Shown here piece by piece: positions 98-31,682 of a stretch of DNA of 36,186 bases. Source of the stretch: Chloroflexota bacterium (lineage in GTDB: Bacteria > Chloroflexota > UBA11872); the NCBI GenBank assembly GCA_011523785.1, contig WTFW01000126.1, forward strand, positions 1 through 36,186, in the 5' to 3' direction. The notes beneath the pieces were generated by a model. It saw only the letters and a program-made list of their open reading frames with translations. It ran no database searches and was not told the DNA's origin. The translations under genes and the position numbers were made by a program. Within the stretch, counting starts at the first letter, position 1. Every line of letters starts with the position of its first letter.

Positions 98-1117
98 CTA
101 AAACTCGTTCCTGACCTTCACCGCCCGCCCCGTCCGCAGCGACTCCCACGCCGCCAGCCCCGTCGACACCACCCGCGCCCCTTCGCGCACCCCCACCCAC
201 GGCGTCGTGCCGATCAGCACACAATCCGCCATGTGCCCCAGCATCACGATCATCTCCCCCGCGTGCCCGCTGTGCGGCGGCAGTTCCGTGACGTAAGCCC
301 GCTGCGGGAGATCGCCCGCCGCATCCAGCGTCTTCACGTTGTCCCGGATCGTTCCCTTCGTCCCGTACACCGTCAGGCCATTCGCCCGTTCGCCGTGCGG
401 ATGCACCATCCCCAGCAGATTCGCCGCCCGCCCCACCATCCCGCTCGTGAACCGCACGTTGATGAAAAAGCAGTCCTCCTGCGGGTACTCCGGCGCCACT
501 CCGCTGCGCAGTCCCACGCAGTGCACCGCCTCGATGTCCCCCATGAACCAGCGCAGCAGATCGATCGGATGACACGCCCCACCCAGGATCAGGTCCTGCG
601 GCATCGCCGTCCGCCACGGCGTCGCCCGGTACACCGGCCGCAGGTCGTGCACGTAATGCGCCTCCGCCATGAACAGCTCGCCGATCTCCCCCGCGTCGCA
701 GGCCCGCTTCGCATCCATGAAGTCCAGGCGCCCCCTCAGTGATTGCGTCACCAGCAGCGTCAGGCCCGTGCGGTCCACTGCCGCCACCACCTGCTCCACC
801 TCCGCCATCGAATACACCATCGACTTCGTCACCATCACGTGCTTCCCGGCGTCCAGCGCCTTCAGGATTTGCTCGCAGTGCAGCGGCCCCGGGGTGTAGA
901 TCCCGATGATGTCCAGATCCTCCCGAGCCACCAGCGCGTCGTAATCCGTCGTCGTCCACTCCACCCCGTACTGCGCGGCCATTGACGCCATCAGCTCGGT
1001 ATTCGTTTCGCACACCGCCGTCACCCGCACCGGCAGATCGGCGAACTCCGGCAGGTTCGCCTGCAGCAACGTCCGCCCATGCCCAAGCCCCGCCAGTCCC
1101 AACCTAAGCGTGCGCAT
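98..1117 (-). CDS. Gfo/Idh/MocA family NAD(P)-dependent oxidoreductase with altered EKP motif
   Basis: This 339-residue protein has the Gfo/Idh/MocA layout: an N-terminal Rossmann fold (GLAGLGHG, residues 7-14) and a C-terminal alpha/beta substrate domain. The His/Asp pair of the family appears as HPID (H183, D186). Such enzymes oxidise or epimerise sugars, inositols and related polyols in the cytoplasm. The usual EKP signature reads TKS (97-99), which keeps the lysine but loses its Glu and Pro neighbours. The ATG start is preceded by GAGAGG at a normal distance and overlaps the end of the upstream acetyltransferase gene by 14 bases, which suggests translational coupling. The substrate is unknown. 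Confidence 0.9.
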   Translation of the reverse strand: MRTLRLGLAGLGHGRTLLQANLPEFADLPVRVTAVCETNTELMASMAAQYGVEWTTTDYDALVAREDLDIIGIYTPGPLHCEQILKALDAGKHVMVTKSMVYSMAEVEQVVAAVDRTGLTLLVTQSLRGRLDFMDAKRACDAGEIGELFMAEAHYVHDLRPVYRATPWRTAMPQDLILGGACHPIDLLRWFMGDIEAVHCVGLRSGVAPEYPQEDCFFINVRFTSGMVGRAANLLGMVHPHGERANGLTVYGTKGTIRDNVKTLDAAGDLPQRAYVTELPPHSGHAGEMIVMLGHMADCVLIGTTPWVGVREGARVVSTGLAAWESLRTGRAVKVRNEF

Positions 1118-1628
1118 GTCCGTGCCTCTCCAGTTCGTGAAGGACCCCAGCCCACCGCCCCGGCATATCCTCGCGGTTCATCACCTGCTCGAATCCCATC
1201 GACAGATACAGGTGAATCGCCGGCAGCCGCCAATCATCCGTCAGCAGCGACACCACTTCGCATCCCTTCCCCACCAGGTAGCGTGACACGGCCGTACAGG
1301 TAGCTCGACCCAGCCCGCGGCCCTGGTGGTCCGGGTGCGTCGCCACGTAATCCAGCACCCCTTCCCGCCGCGGCTCGCCCGGCTTCCCCGTCACCGGGCT
1401 GACCCGATCGCTCGACATTCGCGACGCAAACGTCGAAGCCACGATCCGTCCCTCAAACGCCACCACCGCCGACCCCGCCCTCCGGTCCGCATCTTCCAGG
1501 TACTCCAGCACAGCCTCTCGGCCAAAGCTCCTGAACCCCACCGCCTGCAATGTGCTCGCCAGGTTTGCTTCATCGCCCGGCCGGTACGTCCGCAGCAAGT
1601 AGTCCTCGGGCACCCGCACATCCTGCAT
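1104..1628 (-). CDS. GNAT family N-acetyltransferase
   Basis: From the chosen ATG this is a 174-residue GNAT protein. The acetyl-CoA binding motif A is clear in the segment HPDHQGRGLGRA, followed by a helix and the usual late LYLSMGF motif before the last strand. GNAT enzymes move an acetyl group from acetyl-CoA to an amine, but the acceptor cannot be predicted here. The frame stays open upstream to about 1829, but that extension runs antisense into the start of the divergent oxidoreductase gene, so an internal start is more likely. An ATG at 1658 (184 residues) is the main alternative. Neither start has a clear Shine-Dalgarno. Its stop overlaps the next gene on the same strand. Confidence 0.82.
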   Translation of the reverse strand: MQDVRVPEDYLLRTYRPGDEANLASTLQAVGFRSFGREAVLEYLEDADRRAGSAVVAFEGRIVASTFASRMSSDRVSPVTGKPGEPRREGVLDYVATHPDHQGRGLGRATCTAVSRYLVGKGCEVVSLLTDDWRLPAIHLYLSMGFEQVMNREDMPGRWAGVLHELERHGHAHA

Positions 1629-1788
1629 CGCCCGGACACGGGCCGCGTCAATCACCATGCACAGCTGCTTCGCAGGCAAGCCGTCGCCATCAGCGTCCAC
1701 GACTTGATCTCCGACACGCTCCAACCATTCACCGGCGCTATGCTGCCCCCAATCACGAGCCGCTGACCACTGTCCACTGGAGTGCTTC

Positions 1789-2928
1789 ATGTACACCGCC
1801 GTCATCATTGGAGCAACGGGCGCGGGCAACTACGGACATGATCTGGACCTTGCGTGGCAATTGGTGCCGGAGGTCGATGTCGTGGCCGTCGCCGACGTGG
1901 ACGAGGAGTCGGCTCGGGCGAAGGCGGACGAGCTGGGGGCGCCGCAGGCCTTTGGGGATTATCGCCAGGCGCTGGACAGCGTCCGGCCGGACTTCGTCAA
2001 CATCTGTAATCGCCAGCCCGACGTGCATGCGGAGATGATCCACGCCGCCATTGAGACAGGTGCGAAGGGGATCTACTGCGAGAAACCGCTGGTGCGAACG
2101 CCGGGCGAGGCCGATGCCGTCATCGCCGCCGCCAGTCGCAGTCACACCAAGATCCAGGTGGCCCACACCTGGCGGATCGATCCGGCGGTGCTCCTCATGC
2201 GCGAGATGATCGGCGGCGGCGAAATCGGGCGGGTGGTGGCGGTTCACGCGACCGGAAAAAACGACGACCGCCGCGGCGGAGCCGAAGACCTCTGGGTGTT
2301 GGGCGTGCACCTGATGGACCTGATGCGCCAGGTCGCCGGCGACCCGCGCCAGATGAGCGGCGCCGTGTTCCAGTCGGGGCGCCCGGTGGGCCTGCCGGAC
2401 GTGCACGAGGGCAACGAGCGGATTGGCCTGATCGCCGGCGATCAGCTGTTCGCCACATACATCTTCGAACACGGCGTGGTGGGCACCATATCGTCGGTGC
2501 GCACCGGCCCCGGCTTGCACCGGGCGTTCGGGATCGAGGTGGTTGGCACCGAGGGCCTGATCTCCATGCGCAGCCACGGGCAGCGCGGCCGCGAGCTGCT
2601 GATCAACCGGAGTCCCGGCGAGAGTCCCGGTGTCGACGGCACCTGGGAGGCCGTGCCGGTTCCCGACCTGGACGCCGCCGCCATTGGCGACACGGGGGGG
2701 ACGGCCCACGAACTGCAACTGCTGCAGACCAGCATGACCCTTGACCTGCTCCGCGCCGTGGAGGAGAACCGACGTCCCGTGTGCGACGCTATCGACGGGC
2801 GCTGGACGGTCGAAATGGTTCTTGCGGTCCACGAAGCCGGGTTGACGCAGCAGACGGTGCGGTTTCCGCTGCAGGAGCGAGACAACCCGTACGCGGCGCG
2901 GCGGCAGATGGCGTTGGCGGACGTCTGA
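1789..2928 (+). CDS. Gfo/Idh/MocA family oxidoreductase, tandem copy A
   Basis: This 379-residue protein has a Rossmann dinucleotide loop GATGAG (8-13), the EKP signature at 98-100 and a family His/Asp pair LGVHLMD (H174, D177). The product is expected to be a cytoplasmic NAD(P)-dependent sugar or polyol dehydrogenase. The ATG lies after GGAG with six bases between. The gene is divergent from the acetyltransferase gene on its left. The next gene is a close paralogue: over the first 180 residues the two align without gaps and about 132 positions are identical by hand count. Both also end with the same PYAARRQMALAD tail. Confidence 0.93.
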   Translation: MYTAVIIGATGAGNYGHDLDLAWQLVPEVDVVAVADVDEESARAKADELGAPQAFGDYRQALDSVRPDFVNICNRQPDVHAEMIHAAIETGAKGIYCEKPLVRTPGEADAVIAAASRSHTKIQVAHTWRIDPAVLLMREMIGGGEIGRVVAVHATGKNDDRRGGAEDLWVLGVHLMDLMRQVAGDPRQMSGAVFQSGRPVGLPDVHEGNERIGLIAGDQLFATYIFEHGVVGTISSVRTGPGLHRAFGIEVVGTEGLISMRSHGQRGRELLINRSPGESPGVDGTWEAVPVPDLDAAAIGDTGGTAHELQLLQTSMTLDLLRAVEENRRPVCDAIDGRWTVEMVLAVHEAGLTQQTVRFPLQERDNPYAARRQMALADV

Positions 2929-3074
2929 GAGACTCCAAGGGGAAGCCGGCTAACGCCAATGCCGCCGAGCCGATCGGTCGAAACCCGGGGCTGCAGAATC
3001 TCCGAGCCGCCACCTCGGTGCACCGCGACCCGGCCGCGGCCCTGGCTCGTTGAGTCGAATAGGGGGCAGACCTG

Positions 3075-4235
3075 ATGTACACCGCCGTTGTTATCGGAGC
3101 CACCGGCGCGGGCAACTACGGGCATGACCTGGATCTCGCCTGGCAATTGATCCCCGCGGTCGAGGTCGTGGCGGTGGCGGATCTGGACGAAGAACCGGCC
3201 CGGGCTAAGGCCGACCAGCTGGGAGCGCGGCAGGCGTTCGGCGATTTTCGCGAGATGCTGCACCTAGTGCAGGCGGACTTTGTGACCGTTTGCGTTCGGC
3301 GGCCGCACGAGCGTTGCGAAATGATGCTTGCCGCAATCGAAGCCGGGGCGAAGGGCATCTACTGCGAGAAGCCCTTTGTACGCACGCCGGCCGAGGCCGA
3401 CGCCATTGTGGAGGCGGCCGAGCGCGCCGGAACGAAGATCCAGGTTGCCCATAACTGGCGCGTGGATCCCAAGGTGCTGCGCATGCGGGAAATGGTTCGA
3501 GCGGGCGACATCGGGCGACTGGTGGCGATGCACGCCACCGGCAAGAACGACAGCCGCCGTGGCGGCGCCGAGGACCTGGCGGTCCTGGGTGTCCACCAAT
3601 TGGACCTGATGCGGCGGTTCGCGGGCGACCCGCGGCAGCTGAGCGCCAACGTGATGCAGGCCGGGCGACCCGTGGGCATCCAGGACGCGCGCGAAGGTAA
3701 CGAGAACCTGGGGCTGATGGCCGGCGACCAGGTCTTTGCCACGCTCCTCTTCGACCACGGGGTCACAGGCACCTTTTCCTCCGTCCGTACGGGCCGCGGC
3801 ATGCACCGCCAGATGGGTATCGAGCTGGTTGGCAGCGACGGAATGCTCTCGTTGCGGGGCGGGCCCACCACCGGCCAGCCGTTGCTGATCAACCGGCGGC
3901 CTGAGCTGGATCCGGGCGTGGAAAGCAACTGGGAGGCAGTCCCGGTGCCGCCGCTGGACGCCGAGGCTCTTGGCGACGCCGAGGGCGCGGCTGACGTCCG
4001 GCAGTTGCTGCACTCCACGATGACACGTGACCTGATCGAGGCCGTGGAGCAGGATCGGCGCCCGATCTGCGATGCCATTGACGGCCGCTGGATCAGCGAG
4101 ATGGTGATGGCGGTGCACGAGGCGGGGCTCTCACAACAGACGGTGCGATTTCCGCTAAAGGTGCGGGAGAACCCGTATGCGGCGCGGAGGCAGATGGCGC
4201 TGGCGGACGACCAGGGCCGCTCCGGGCTCCCGTAG
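3075..4235 (+). CDS. Gfo/Idh/MocA family oxidoreductase, tandem copy B
   Basis: This 386-residue paralogue of the preceding gene has GATGAG at 8-13, EKP at 98-100 and LGVHQLD with H174 and D177. All catalytic-type residues visible in copy A are kept, so both copies look functional. Differences cluster around residues 60-90 and 110-125. The ATG is preceded by AGGGGG with a spacing of eight. The 146-base gap after copy A shows no gene or clear terminator, so joint transcription is possible. The C-terminus is seven residues longer than that of copy A after the shared tail. Confidence 0.93.
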   Translation: MYTAVVIGATGAGNYGHDLDLAWQLIPAVEVVAVADLDEEPARAKADQLGARQAFGDFREMLHLVQADFVTVCVRRPHERCEMMLAAIEAGAKGIYCEKPFVRTPAEADAIVEAAERAGTKIQVAHNWRVDPKVLRMREMVRAGDIGRLVAMHATGKNDSRRGGAEDLAVLGVHQLDLMRRFAGDPRQLSANVMQAGRPVGIQDAREGNENLGLMAGDQVFATLLFDHGVTGTFSSVRTGRGMHRQMGIELVGSDGMLSLRGGPTTGQPLLINRRPELDPGVESNWEAVPVPPLDAEALGDAEGAADVRQLLHSTMTRDLIEAVEQDRRPICDAIDGRWISEMVMAVHEAGLSQQTVRFPLKVRENPYAARRQMALADDQGRSGLP

Positions 4236-19540: not shown

Positions 19541-21532
<1,992 letters not shown>

Positions 21533-21966: not shown

Positions 21967-24189
21967 TCACCTACCGCCTGCGCCGGATGGCCCGATGGTC
22001 ACGGGCAGCCCGGACCCGTCTTCGGCCTCGACGAGGCGCCGGATTGGACCTCCGAACGTGAGGACGTAGACCTCGCCGGCGGCGTCGACTCCGAATGAGC
22101 TGAGCGAAGTGGGAAGATCCGCAACTTGAATCATTTTCCATCCCTGATCGGCGTCGCCTTCGAGCACCCAAATCCGTCCGCTGCAAAAGTCGCCAAATAA
22201 ATAAGATCCGTTCAGCCAGGTAATCGACGAGCCTCTGTAAACGATGCCGCCGACGACGGCGCACACTTCTCCGTCGTGCTCATAGGAAACTATTGGCTGG
22301 ATCATGTCTTCAGACTCCTCGCACGCATAGCCAGTCTCTATGCCGTAGTGAGTCTTGACACTTTCATCCACGGTCGGGCAGCCATAGCCTTCGAAGACCG
22401 GCCAGCCTGAATTCGCGCCAGCAGTAACGATCGACACTTCTTCCTCGGACTCATGCCCAACGTCGCCGACCCACAACTCACCTTGTTGGGAATCAAACGA
22501 CATTCTCCAGGGATTTCTAAAGCCTAAGGCCCAGATTTCAGCTCGTGCGTCGGATACATCGAGAAATGGATTGTCATCGGGAATCTGATAAGGTTGATCA
22601 GCCGTCGCGTCGCGTACGTCGATACGAATGACCTTGCCGAACAGATTGTCCAAAGTTTGTGGACATTCAAAGCAATCAGCGTCTCCAATGCCGAGATACA
22701 GCATGCCGTCATCCCCGAACCTTACGGTGCCGCCGTAGTGGCCAAACCCGTAGTATCCATAAGCAGGTAGTGGTAGTGGTAGATCCAGGATTATCAGCCC
22801 TTCTTCATTGACGGCACGTCCATCGACAATTGGAAAGCGCGCAAGTCGGACACTGGGCCCATCGGCTTCAGGGTGATTCTGCTTGGCCATGAAGTACGCG
22901 TAAAGATATGGGAACTCTTCAAATCGAGAGTCGACGGCCACGCTCAGCAGGCCGCTGAAACCTCCTTCCAAGAAGAGTTCGTCGTTCAACTCCAACACAG
23001 TCCGTGATCCCCTTCCGTCTTCAACTAACGTAATCACTCCTCGTCTCTCAGCGACCAGGACTCCGCCGTGCGGCCAAGGTGAGATGTCGACAGGCTCCGC
23101 ATAGGTGACTGACGGTAAGTCGTAGACAAGGATCAAGCGGCGATAGCGAGATTCCGGGGCGATACTTGGATCGTACACCCAACACTGCGTGTGCCCACCT
23201 GGACGTATCCCACACGTGGTGTTCCAGCCAGCGGTCACGGATGTGAACTCGCCGAGTGGCACCGGGAGTGCTGTGTTGCCAGCTGGATTAGGTTTCTGGC
23301 CCCAGCACCGCAAGCCACCGTCACTAGCGATGCCACAACCATGCATGTATCCGTTGGTTATCTGAGTGAACACAGATTCGGGCGGGCTTGATTGGCCGGA
23401 ATCATCCTTACCCTGGCAAGCAACCATGCCGTCCTGGTGCAGCACACACGTGTGAGCCGCGCCGACGGCCAGGGCGAGAAACGGTCCGCTGCGCGACGCG
23501 GCCCGTCCGTCATCGTTCTTTCCCCAGCAGACCAGGTCAGCGCCAAGCGTCAGACCGCAACTATGCTCCGCCCCAGCCCCGATCGCTGCGAAGGCGACGT
23601 CCTGCGGCGGCGTCGCCCGCTCGTTCGCGTTCCATCCCCAGCATGTGGCGAATCCTTCGCTTAGCGCGCAGACATGGTCCCAGCCCGCGTCAATCGCCGT
23701 GAACTCCCCATCCGGCGCTTCAGTCTGGTGGTGATCGTTTTGCCCCCAGCAGGAAACCCCGCCATCTACCCGGATGCCGCAGGAAAACCGGAAGCCAGCC
23801 GTAATCTGCTGAAACTTGACCCCTTCCGGAACGTCCAACTGGCCATCATCGTTCGAACCCCAGCACTGAACCTGCCCGCTGTTCTGAAGCACACACGAGT
23901 GATTCTCACCAACCGCCACCTGAACGATAACTGAAGCTTCGGCGTCCGGCTGCAATGCCGCTGCGGCTGTCTGGGTTGTCTCAGGCGTCGTCCTTTGTTC
24001 GGTCGTGATCGCCCGCGGCCGCAACGCCTGCTGCTGGGCCTTTGGCGTCGGCTCGGGCATCGACTCCTTCGCCGGCGGCTGCTCGCAGGCAACCATCAGG
24101 ATGGCCGAAACCATCGCGACTCCAAAGATTACGGACAACCTTCGTTGCAATGCTGTCTTTGCGGATTCGATCACCAGAAGCAATCTCAA
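21967..24189 (-). CDS. Lipoprotein with RCC1-like repeats fused to a PQQ-type sugar dehydrogenase-like domain
   Basis: The protein (740 residues) has a signal peptide ending in a lipobox-like LMVAC, with Cys35 as lipidation site, then a Gln/Thr/Pro-rich linker. Seven RCC1-like repeats follow (about 89-340), each with a Cys pair 9-10 residues apart and usually a CWG motif, for example C99/C109, C137/C147 and C326/C336. Residues 352-730 match the glucose/sorbosone dehydrogenase-like propeller, with GFRNPWR and WVGDVGHESEEEV segments. It should sit outside the membrane. The first start is TTG; GTG at 24174 is equally possible. Base composition looks lower in G+C than its neighbours. Whether it binds PQQ is not provable here. 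Confidence 0.86.
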   Translation of the reverse strand: MRLLLVIESAKTALQRRLSVIFGVAMVSAILMVACEQPPAKESMPEPTPKAQQQALRPRAITTEQRTTPETTQTAAAALQPDAEASVIVQVAVGENHSCVLQNSGQVQCWGSNDDGQLDVPEGVKFQQITAGFRFSCGIRVDGGVSCWGQNDHHQTEAPDGEFTAIDAGWDHVCALSEGFATCWGWNANERATPPQDVAFAAIGAGAEHSCGLTLGADLVCWGKNDDGRAASRSGPFLALAVGAAHTCVLHQDGMVACQGKDDSGQSSPPESVFTQITNGYMHGCGIASDGGLRCWGQKPNPAGNTALPVPLGEFTSVTAGWNTTCGIRPGGHTQCWVYDPSIAPESRYRRLILVYDLPSVTYAEPVDISPWPHGGVLVAERRGVITLVEDGRGSRTVLELNDELFLEGGFSGLLSVAVDSRFEEFPYLYAYFMAKQNHPEADGPSVRLARFPIVDGRAVNEEGLIILDLPLPLPAYGYYGFGHYGGTVRFGDDGMLYLGIGDADCFECPQTLDNLFGKVIRIDVRDATADQPYQIPDDNPFLDVSDARAEIWALGFRNPWRMSFDSQQGELWVGDVGHESEEEVSIVTAGANSGWPVFEGYGCPTVDESVKTHYGIETGYACEESEDMIQPIVSYEHDGEVCAVVGGIVYRGSSITWLNGSYLFGDFCSGRIWVLEGDADQGWKMIQVADLPTSLSSFGVDAAGEVYVLTFGGPIRRLVEAEDGSGLPVTIGPSGAGGR

Positions 24190-29417: not shown

Positions 29418-31682
29418 TCAGTTCAGCTCGTGAACGAAAGGCCCACCATGGATAAGGTTGTACCAGTGCCGGACCTCATCACGCCGATCCGGCGGCGTAT
29501 GCCGCAGAAACGACTGATAAATGTCCTTATCGCTTGGTGTAGGAATGCCCGCGGCGTTTTTCCTCTCGCCATCCCGTTCCGCGAGAGCGTAAAGGTCGCG
29601 CATGGCCAACGACATCCGCTCCTCGCCGAGCGTCGTAAAGAGCCTGTAAAGCAGCATTCTCCCGTAAAGGTCCGCGCAATGCCGCAACGGCTCTGCACGA
29701 CTGTAGAGCACCGTTCTCGTTTGCAGCGATAGCCCATGGATGGTTGAGTGCCCTTCCGCTGCGCATTTGGATAGAGCTTCCGCTGACCAGCCGTGGTGAT
29801 AGTCCGCAAGACTTCGCGAACCCTGCCACTCGTCTGTGAGTGCCTTGATAAACTCCGGGGCGCTACGCGCCAACCACCGCGGATTGAGCAGCCGGTCTCT
29901 GGGATCAGGATACTCATAATACGGATAATTTGGGCCCGCGCTCTCATCGAAATAGAGACTCGCTACTATCTGGTGAATGAGGTTGGTCCGAATCTCATGA
30001 ACCCTCATAAGTCCTTCCTGTTTCACAAGAATCGTCTGTGGCCAGGTGTCCATAATTCCAGCGAGAGACGTCGGCGCATGTCTTCCGAAGTCTGGTACAT
30101 GACCTCGAGTCATCAATATCACGAGGTCATTGAACGGCAATGGCGTATTCACGATTCGTTCGGCTCCGCGCAGTCCCTGCGCGACGGAGCGGAGGATGTT
30201 GAGACCCTCCGGTATCGGTTCATCATCGAATACCCAGACTCTGAATGATCCGGTCAGTGGAAGGGAGAATGTCAACGACCTGGCGTGGTGTCGCTCGAGC
30301 AGGCGGCTGAATTGTGAGTTGTGATTGATCTGCAGCTCAGTGTCTACTGCATGGTCGTTCACTCCCACGACGCTCAGGGCATTCACGAGTGCGCGCTCTT
30401 GAGCGTCCAGGCCGTCGTTGAACCATGGCGTGTTCACAAGACGGTGATGGCGGTCGGTTCTATGTCCTAGCGAGTCGGTGTGGATGACGAGTTCTTGTAG
30501 CGCCGTCATAACTCGAACGTCGCTCGACCAAACTGGCGCGCGCAAAGTATTGGCAAGCAGTTGCCGTGCTAGGTCTGGGTTAATCACGAACAGTTCAGTC
30601 AGTGCCCAAACCGCGTCCTCCTCGTAAGGCACGAGCCCATCCTGGACCCATGCTGCGCTCGCCATGGCAACTGTGAACCCCAAGTCTTGCTCTGCGATGT
30701 CATTAAGACTTCGAAGAGTAAGGGTCTCGTCAAACGTCAGGTCATCCTGAATCCAGGTGAAGGATCGAAGCAATTCACCCAGGCTTTCGCTCTTCTGCGC
30801 TAGCAGCTGAATGTACTGGAGTGAGTACATTTCGCCGCCGTAGATGTCTGTGGAGTTTGTTCCGTCTGCAAACCAGTCGGCGCTCGCCACGAACATTGCC
30901 AGATCGCGGTTGATAGCGTCAGTGAGTAACAGACGGTTCAGCGCCATTTGGTCAGGGCCTGAGATTCCATCGATAAGCCATGGGTAGGTGAAGCAACCGA
31001 GCCATGGCATGACGATCAGCAGTCGCTCCAGTTGAGGGTTCGATGCGGCGAGGTCGCCGACAGTTGGTCCGGCGGCATCAAATGCCCGGATGTAGCCCGG
31101 TCGGGCGGCGCGGGCCACGGTCGCGGCTTCACAGAGTCCCACCCATGCAAACGTCCCGCGAACGTTCTCGGCATGATCCTGCTGGCACTGGGCCTCGGCC
31201 TGATCGCCAAATGCCCGGGTATAGATGCCCACGTTGCGATCGTTGCCTAGGTGGGCCTCAACCACGTCATTCAGATACACGCACGTCGTCGGCCATCCCC
31301 CTCCGTAGTGTGCAGTCGACGACGCCGCGGTCGCGCTCGCTGCGGGCGTCGCAGCCGAGCCCTCAAACGCCCAGGCAAAGGTCCGCTGCACATCTGCGCG
31401 GTGGTCGGTCCGGCAGGCGGCTTCCGCCTGGTCGCCATGAATCCGCTGGTAGATGCCCACGTTGCCGACGTTCCCAAGGTGCTGCTCCACAATGTCGTTC
31501 AGCTCCACGCACCCCGTCGGCCACTGCGCGCTTACGCCCACCGTCGTCGCTGACACAAGTGCCACAGCCAGCGCAACGGCCAAAACGAGACGATAGTGAC
31601 GCCCTAAGGCGCGAGCCTTCGTGGGTATCTGAGGTACACCTCCGGCAATCAACTGCTTCGGCCCGCAAGCTATCTGGAGCAT
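29418..31682 (-). CDS. Secreted repeat protein with decayed MA-clan peptidase-like domain
   Basis: The protein (754 residues from the first ATG) has a signal peptide (RLVLAVALAVALVSA, about 31-45). Next come two copies of a ~52-residue cysteine repeat (54-106 and 130-181), each WPTxCVxLNDxVExHLGN with a second Cys 32 residues after the first. Six Trp-centred repeats follow, with W235, W270, W310, W345, W385 and W420, mostly WxxDG. The C-terminal part has NLIHQIVASLYF, then NPRWLARSAPEF, resembling a gluzincin HExxH...E site with Glu and the second His lost. The ATG has no ribosome site, but ATA at 31628 has GGAGGTG eight bases upstream and gives a normal signal peptide. Function unknown. Confidence 0.85.
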   Translation of the reverse strand: MLQIACGPKQLIAGGVPQIPTKARALGRHYRLVLAVALAVALVSATTVGVSAQWPTGCVELNDIVEQHLGNVGNVGIYQRIHGDQAEAACRTDHRADVQRTFAWAFEGSAATPAASATAASSTAHYGGGWPTTCVYLNDVVEAHLGNDRNVGIYTRAFGDQAEAQCQQDHAENVRGTFAWVGLCEAATVARAARPGYIRAFDAAGPTVGDLAASNPQLERLLIVMPWLGCFTYPWLIDGISGPDQMALNRLLLTDAINRDLAMFVASADWFADGTNSTDIYGGEMYSLQYIQLLAQKSESLGELLRSFTWIQDDLTFDETLTLRSLNDIAEQDLGFTVAMASAAWVQDGLVPYEEDAVWALTELFVINPDLARQLLANTLRAPVWSSDVRVMTALQELVIHTDSLGHRTDRHHRLVNTPWFNDGLDAQERALVNALSVVGVNDHAVDTELQINHNSQFSRLLERHHARSLTFSLPLTGSFRVWVFDDEPIPEGLNILRSVAQGLRGAERIVNTPLPFNDLVILMTRGHVPDFGRHAPTSLAGIMDTWPQTILVKQEGLMRVHEIRTNLIHQIVASLYFDESAGPNYPYYEYPDPRDRLLNPRWLARSAPEFIKALTDEWQGSRSLADYHHGWSAEALSKCAAEGHSTIHGLSLQTRTVLYSRAEPLRHCADLYGRMLLYRLFTTLGEERMSLAMRDLYALAERDGERKNAAGIPTPSDKDIYQSFLRHTPPDRRDEVRHWYNLIHGGPFVHELN

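Follow-up and report, generated by a model that had tools for sequence, protein, structure and literature searches.

The gene at positions 29,418 to 31,682 of the window (the window being the whole 36,186-nucleotide stretch of Chloroflexota DNA analysed) probably encodes an exported protein that descends from an M1-like zinc peptidase, has lost catalysis and serves as an extracellular binder. Both export and the loss of catalysis are supported by features of the predicted protein. The open reading frame lies on the reverse strand, begins with ATG and encodes 754 amino acids without internal stops. A sequence-only reading had previously proposed this frame as a secreted protein with a duplicated cysteine module, a Trp repeat and a dead peptidase site, and the frame and each of these features were found to be present beyond chance. 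The predicted export is borne out by a signal sequence at the N-terminus, whose hydrophobic segment ends at VSA/Q53. Scans of the protein against Pfam and NCBIfam gave no convincing match, and a PDB sequence search with the single protein returned chance matches only. The features are listed in Table 1.

Table 1. Features of the gene and its predicted product, in window coordinates
Feature	Position	Strand	Evidence
Whole gene, 754 aa predicted exported protein	29418..31682	-	orthologs 75-78% identical across nearly full length; gene neighbourhood conserved
N-terminal signal sequence, residues 1-52, ends VSA/QWPTGC	31527..31682	-	start codon uncertain; A-x-A/Q-W-P context as in most module proteins
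Cys module 1, residues 53-105	31368..31526	-	profile A1, E 8e-33; AlphaFold helix hairpin, mean pLDDT 92.6
Cys module 2, residues 129-181	31140..31298	-	second WPTxC copy
Trp-anchored alpha-hairpin repeat array, residues about 220-440	30363..31025	-	alignment, AlphaFold, periodicity
Degenerate M1-like (gluzincin) peptidase domain, residues 441-754	29421..30362	-	hhalign of dead-clade vs intact profile, probability 99.8%, E 2e-27; intact profile to M1, 2.5e-8
Q571-I-V-A-S575 replacing HExxH	29958..29972	-	alignment with active relatives
Arg606 replacing third zinc ligand Glu of WLxEG	29865..29867	-	alignment with active relatives

The C-terminal domain and its zinc site

The sequence-only reading had described the C-terminus as a gluzincin in which HQIVA stands where HExxH is needed. 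HQIVA is found at residues 570-574 and NPRWLARSAPEF at 600-611, and the loss of HExxH stands, although the register was off by one. When the window protein (H-Q-I-V-A-S-L-Y-F) is aligned with active relatives (..YHETAHFYF and ..THEVAHYYW), the HExxH columns are occupied by Q571, I572, V573, A574 and S575, and H570, which is Tyr in four orthologs, falls one column before them. In this register no metal ligand is left, since the two His, the Glu and also the third zinc ligand have all been replaced. HExxH with its catalytic Glu is likewise absent from all ten members of the clade to which the protein belongs. The old site reads QIVAS, DAIGE or ETVAK depending on the subclade, and the third-ligand Glu position holds R606 in the window protein and V or N in the sister subclades. 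The concern that close homologs might retain an intact HExxH, and so point to a sequencing error, fails, as all of them lack the site; its absence from four orthologous MAGs excludes such an error, and it is missing from the two further subclades as well.

Intact copies of the same family are available for comparison. A paralog in the same genome (contig C107, 872 aa) has the same repeats in the form PW[VI]xDG and keeps HEVAHYYW..WLCEGGA intact, and a search of 41 genomes of the class extended the family to more members from genera g1, g2 and g8. A profile of mixed composition (A2) gave as its top PDB match a designed coiled coil (8qae, 2.2e-6), which was rejected as helical-repeat composition; the M1 search was therefore redone with a profile of 15 intact members only, in which H, E, H, W, E and G of the active site are invariant. 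This profile matched ERAP2 (2.5e-8), LNPEP (1.9e-7), ERAP1 (6e-7) and LTA4H (1e-4) in the PDB. A profile of eight dead members matched no M1 or other structure there, and was aligned by hhalign to the intact-only profile over 277 columns at the values given in Table 1. Because the intact profile matches M1 structures and the dead profile aligns to the intact one, the C-terminal domain is, as judged from these profiles, M1-like by descent. With HExxH and the third ligand both lacking, it falls outside the active M1-like family. The AlphaFold model built from an 8-row alignment is unusable in this domain (pLDDT about 30), so the case for a retained fold rests on the profiles, and a Foldseek search with the full-length model returned nothing below E 0.9.

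With the M1 aminopeptidases (PF01433; ERAP2, LNPEP, APN, tricorn factor F3 and LTA4H) the family shares profile homology over the GAMEN-like segment, HExxH, WLxEG and the LGxxLL helix that follows. It differs from them in lacking the GAMEN motif and in remaining under the Pfam Peptidase_M1 gathering cut-off (no match for the window protein, best E 0.017 among relatives). In addition, the catalytic residues are replaced in the window clade, and the domain is preceded by Trp repeats, not by the M1 N-terminal domain. Domains of the TAF2 type, M1-like but without catalysis, are said to keep an aminopeptidase-like fold after loss of the zinc site and to have a scaffold role. Unlike the window protein, TAF2 works in the nucleus as part of a transcription factor, and the two are likened here by description only.

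The Cys module and the Trp repeats

The WPTxCVxLND module occurs twice in the translation, as WPTGCVELND from W54 and WPTTCVYLND from W130, with the start-to-start spacing of 76 residues and the Cys-Cys distance of 32 (Cys58-Cys90 and Cys134-Cys166) that had been described. It had been counted among the parts that make this protein unusual; the duplication is confirmed, but the module is not peculiar to the protein, since the same exported domain is found in seven proteins of its own genome and in many relatives. A 26-row profile delimits a module of 53 amino acids with 15 invariant columns, both Cys among them. It is modelled by AlphaFold as a hairpin of two helices (6-16 and 25-49), across which Cys6 and Cys38 could touch. 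A match of the module profile to the Arc repressor (0.017) was rejected, as it covers half of the module and concerns a DNA-binding protein. Among the four orthologs L016 to L019, synonymous divergence in the module segment can depart strongly from that in the rest of the gene (dS 1.7 vs 0.25 for L017 and L019), as if modules had been exchanged by recombination.

With the 26-row profile, 10-33 copies per genome were counted in 12 of 13 genus g1 genomes; genus g4 has 9-12 per genome, and two of six g2 genomes have 1-4. None was detected outside these three genera in the other genomes of a 400-genome phylum sample, and none was found in viral contigs, plasmids or phages. The module usually starts directly after the signal peptide. 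A hydrophobic segment directly precedes the first module in 48 of 53 ORFs, and in these 48 a small -3/-1 pair is seen before the module in 42 and an initial Q in 42. Two modules are present in 34 of 55 ORFs, most commonly spaced 66-72 residues apart. The fusion partners recognised by Pfam are ankyrin, SNase with Excalibur, BNR/sortilin, cytochrome c, Cache, LRR with GHL15, RCC1, trypsin, GmrSD_C, fn3 and PD40; in the cytochrome c protein the module sits at the C-terminus, and in one ankyrin protein it stands at both ends. HExxH motifs also occur, in unrelated contexts, in the module proteins L014, L043, L045, L047 and L062, so the module seems often to be paired with putative metallopeptidases.

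In being exported and promiscuous with unrelated partners, the module behaves as a cell-surface anchoring module would. It resembles SLH, LysM and dockerin domains in being small, repeated, export-associated, joined to unrelated partners and usually placed at one end of the protein. In contrast to them, it has no match in Pfam or by Foldseek and no convincing match among PDB sequences; SLH itself is absent from the module genus. The module is most likely to be a lineage-specific export or attachment domain.

Between the modules and the peptidase-like domain, Trp residues at 235, 270, 310, 345, 385 and 420 were proposed to mark a regular helical array. A six-Trp chain with two alternating spacings arose in none of 2000 random placements of 18 Trp, and a lag of 75 gave the highest self-similarity among lags 20-119, exceeding every shuffle tested. 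In the AlphaFold model (8-row alignment), about residues 283-440 are built with pLDDT roughly 50-81 and two helices per repeat (these at about 60-80), the Trp lying at or just past the end of the second helix; the remainder of this full-length model is poor. The array is therefore upheld, with this segment forming the regular tandem helix pairs of an alpha-solenoid according to a moderate-confidence model and the periodicity. The exception is W385, which lies outside the WxxDG context, is replaced in active relatives and does not qualify as a canonical repeat Trp. The 35/40/35 spacing of the first four Trp is kept in orthologs, and active relatives have the same repeats, one with spacings of 35, 33, 35, 33 and 35. 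As in HEAT/TPR-like alpha-solenoids, there are two helices per unit of 33-40 residues; unlike those, the repeats carry the signature PWhxDGhxxxE, alternate with a 35/33-40 period and match no Pfam repeat family. In the active copies L015, L113, L027 and L041, a conserved N-terminal domain (DGFAVTNAD..LW.FV.A.DLQAIGYPISQRW..GPFTLQAFQKVILQWD) lies ahead of the repeats; it went unmatched when L015 and L041 were scanned with Pfam.

Loss of the site within the family

In a tree of 30 members, the ten dead copies, all from genus g1, form one clade (support 100/99, or 100/98 without the catalytic columns). Its neighbours are intact copies, although some rows are long-branched and the placement of these neighbours is less sure than the dead clade itself. 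The tree requires at least four changes between the dead and intact states, which indicates several losses of the site over the history of the family. The dead clade comprises three subclades, the sister ones about 35-40% identical to the window protein, with about 60 invariant columns. Two tandem copies in a g2 genome (G017) combine two modules, repeats and an intact site; the fusion of module, repeat and peptidase is therefore older than the loss of the site, and a gain of modules coincident with that loss was rejected. All complete dead copies have two modules, and the one without modules (L028) ends at a contig edge. Just upstream of the ortholog in L017, a tandem module-bearing paralog (L017:5066-6444) is apparently split by a frameshift.

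Since the zinc site is lost yet the domain is conserved, the protein probably binds rather than cuts. A rival reading, which we consider very unlikely, is that an active peptidase gene became a decaying pseudogene so recently that it has yet to disappear. Two close orthologs do have a TAG in frame (codon 749 in L016 and codon 277 in L018), and these, with the frameshifted tandem copy in L017, would suit such decay. Judging by the TAG codons, some ortholog copies may indeed be decaying; strain variation or assembly error may also account for them. However, no interruption is seen in the window gene or in five other genomes, the dead clade has diverged into three subclades that share their invariant columns, and dN/dS between the window gene and its orthologs, at 0.11-0.22 depending on the region and 0.07-0.11 near the dead site, is far under 1, a sign of purifying selection that speaks against a pseudogene.

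Because the dead domain is strongly conserved and has polar and His residues that never vary (e.g. H190, H288, H299 and H305 in alignment A4), it might instead be an enzyme that works by a different mechanism through other residues. This is improbable, as the unrelated residues of the three subclades at the old site argue against a shared new site there, and no other catalytic motif was recognised. The co-occurrence of active and dead copies in the window's genome and in G005, G006, G008 and G009 would fit an inhibitor or partner, in which the dead copy forms a pair with the active enzyme or competes with it for substrate, but the active and dead genes are carried on separate contigs there, and G007 and G011 have, among the matches listed, the dead copy only; such a role is improbable.

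For the preferred reading, an extracellular binder descended from a peptidase, the module pair would fold after export with one disulfide per module and would hold the protein at the cell exterior, or direct it there. The helical repeats and the dead peptidase cleft would then bind peptide or protein uncut, and the protein could act as scaffold, receptor or capture factor, perhaps alongside the active paralog of the same genome.

Genomic setting and possible host association

Elsewhere in the window are three closely spaced GFO/IDH/MocA family oxidoreductase genes (98-4235), a gene for a Mg-chelatase-like AAA and VWA domain protein (19541-21532, reverse strand), and a gene that joins RCC1 repeats to a glucose/sorbosone dehydrogenase domain and has no Cys module (21967-24189, reverse strand).

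The orthologs belong to MAGs with the isolate names jk18x and p16x, and the jk18x bins were obtained from Caribbean Ircinia sponges (PMC9531527). Proteins with ANK, WD40, LRR, fn3 and PD40 domains are enriched in Ircinia symbionts (PMC9531527), and several of these protein types are among the partners of the Cys module. By analogy with these relatives, the window's own organism may live in a sponge. The idea that the genus has no cell wall, like the SAR202 genomes of PMC6306507, is unsupported, as transpeptidase domains were found in all 19 genomes searched.

We tentatively suggest that the WPTxC module might be an unrecognised export or attachment domain that takes a set of extracellular proteins, many of them eukaryotic-like (ankyrin, LRR, fn3, PD40 and RCC1), to one host-interface site in a sponge-symbiont Chloroflexota lineage, the dead peptidase being one client turned capture protein. 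The window protein offers a concrete example of a bacterial peptidase domain put to extracellular use without catalysis, and it can be compared with active relatives from its own genome and family. More broadly, a set of exported proteins in a genus with Ircinia-sponge members is marked by a small domain that has two Cys and no counterpart in Pfam, and the ligand of this module would tell where on the symbiont these proteins, eukaryotic-like repeats included, sit.
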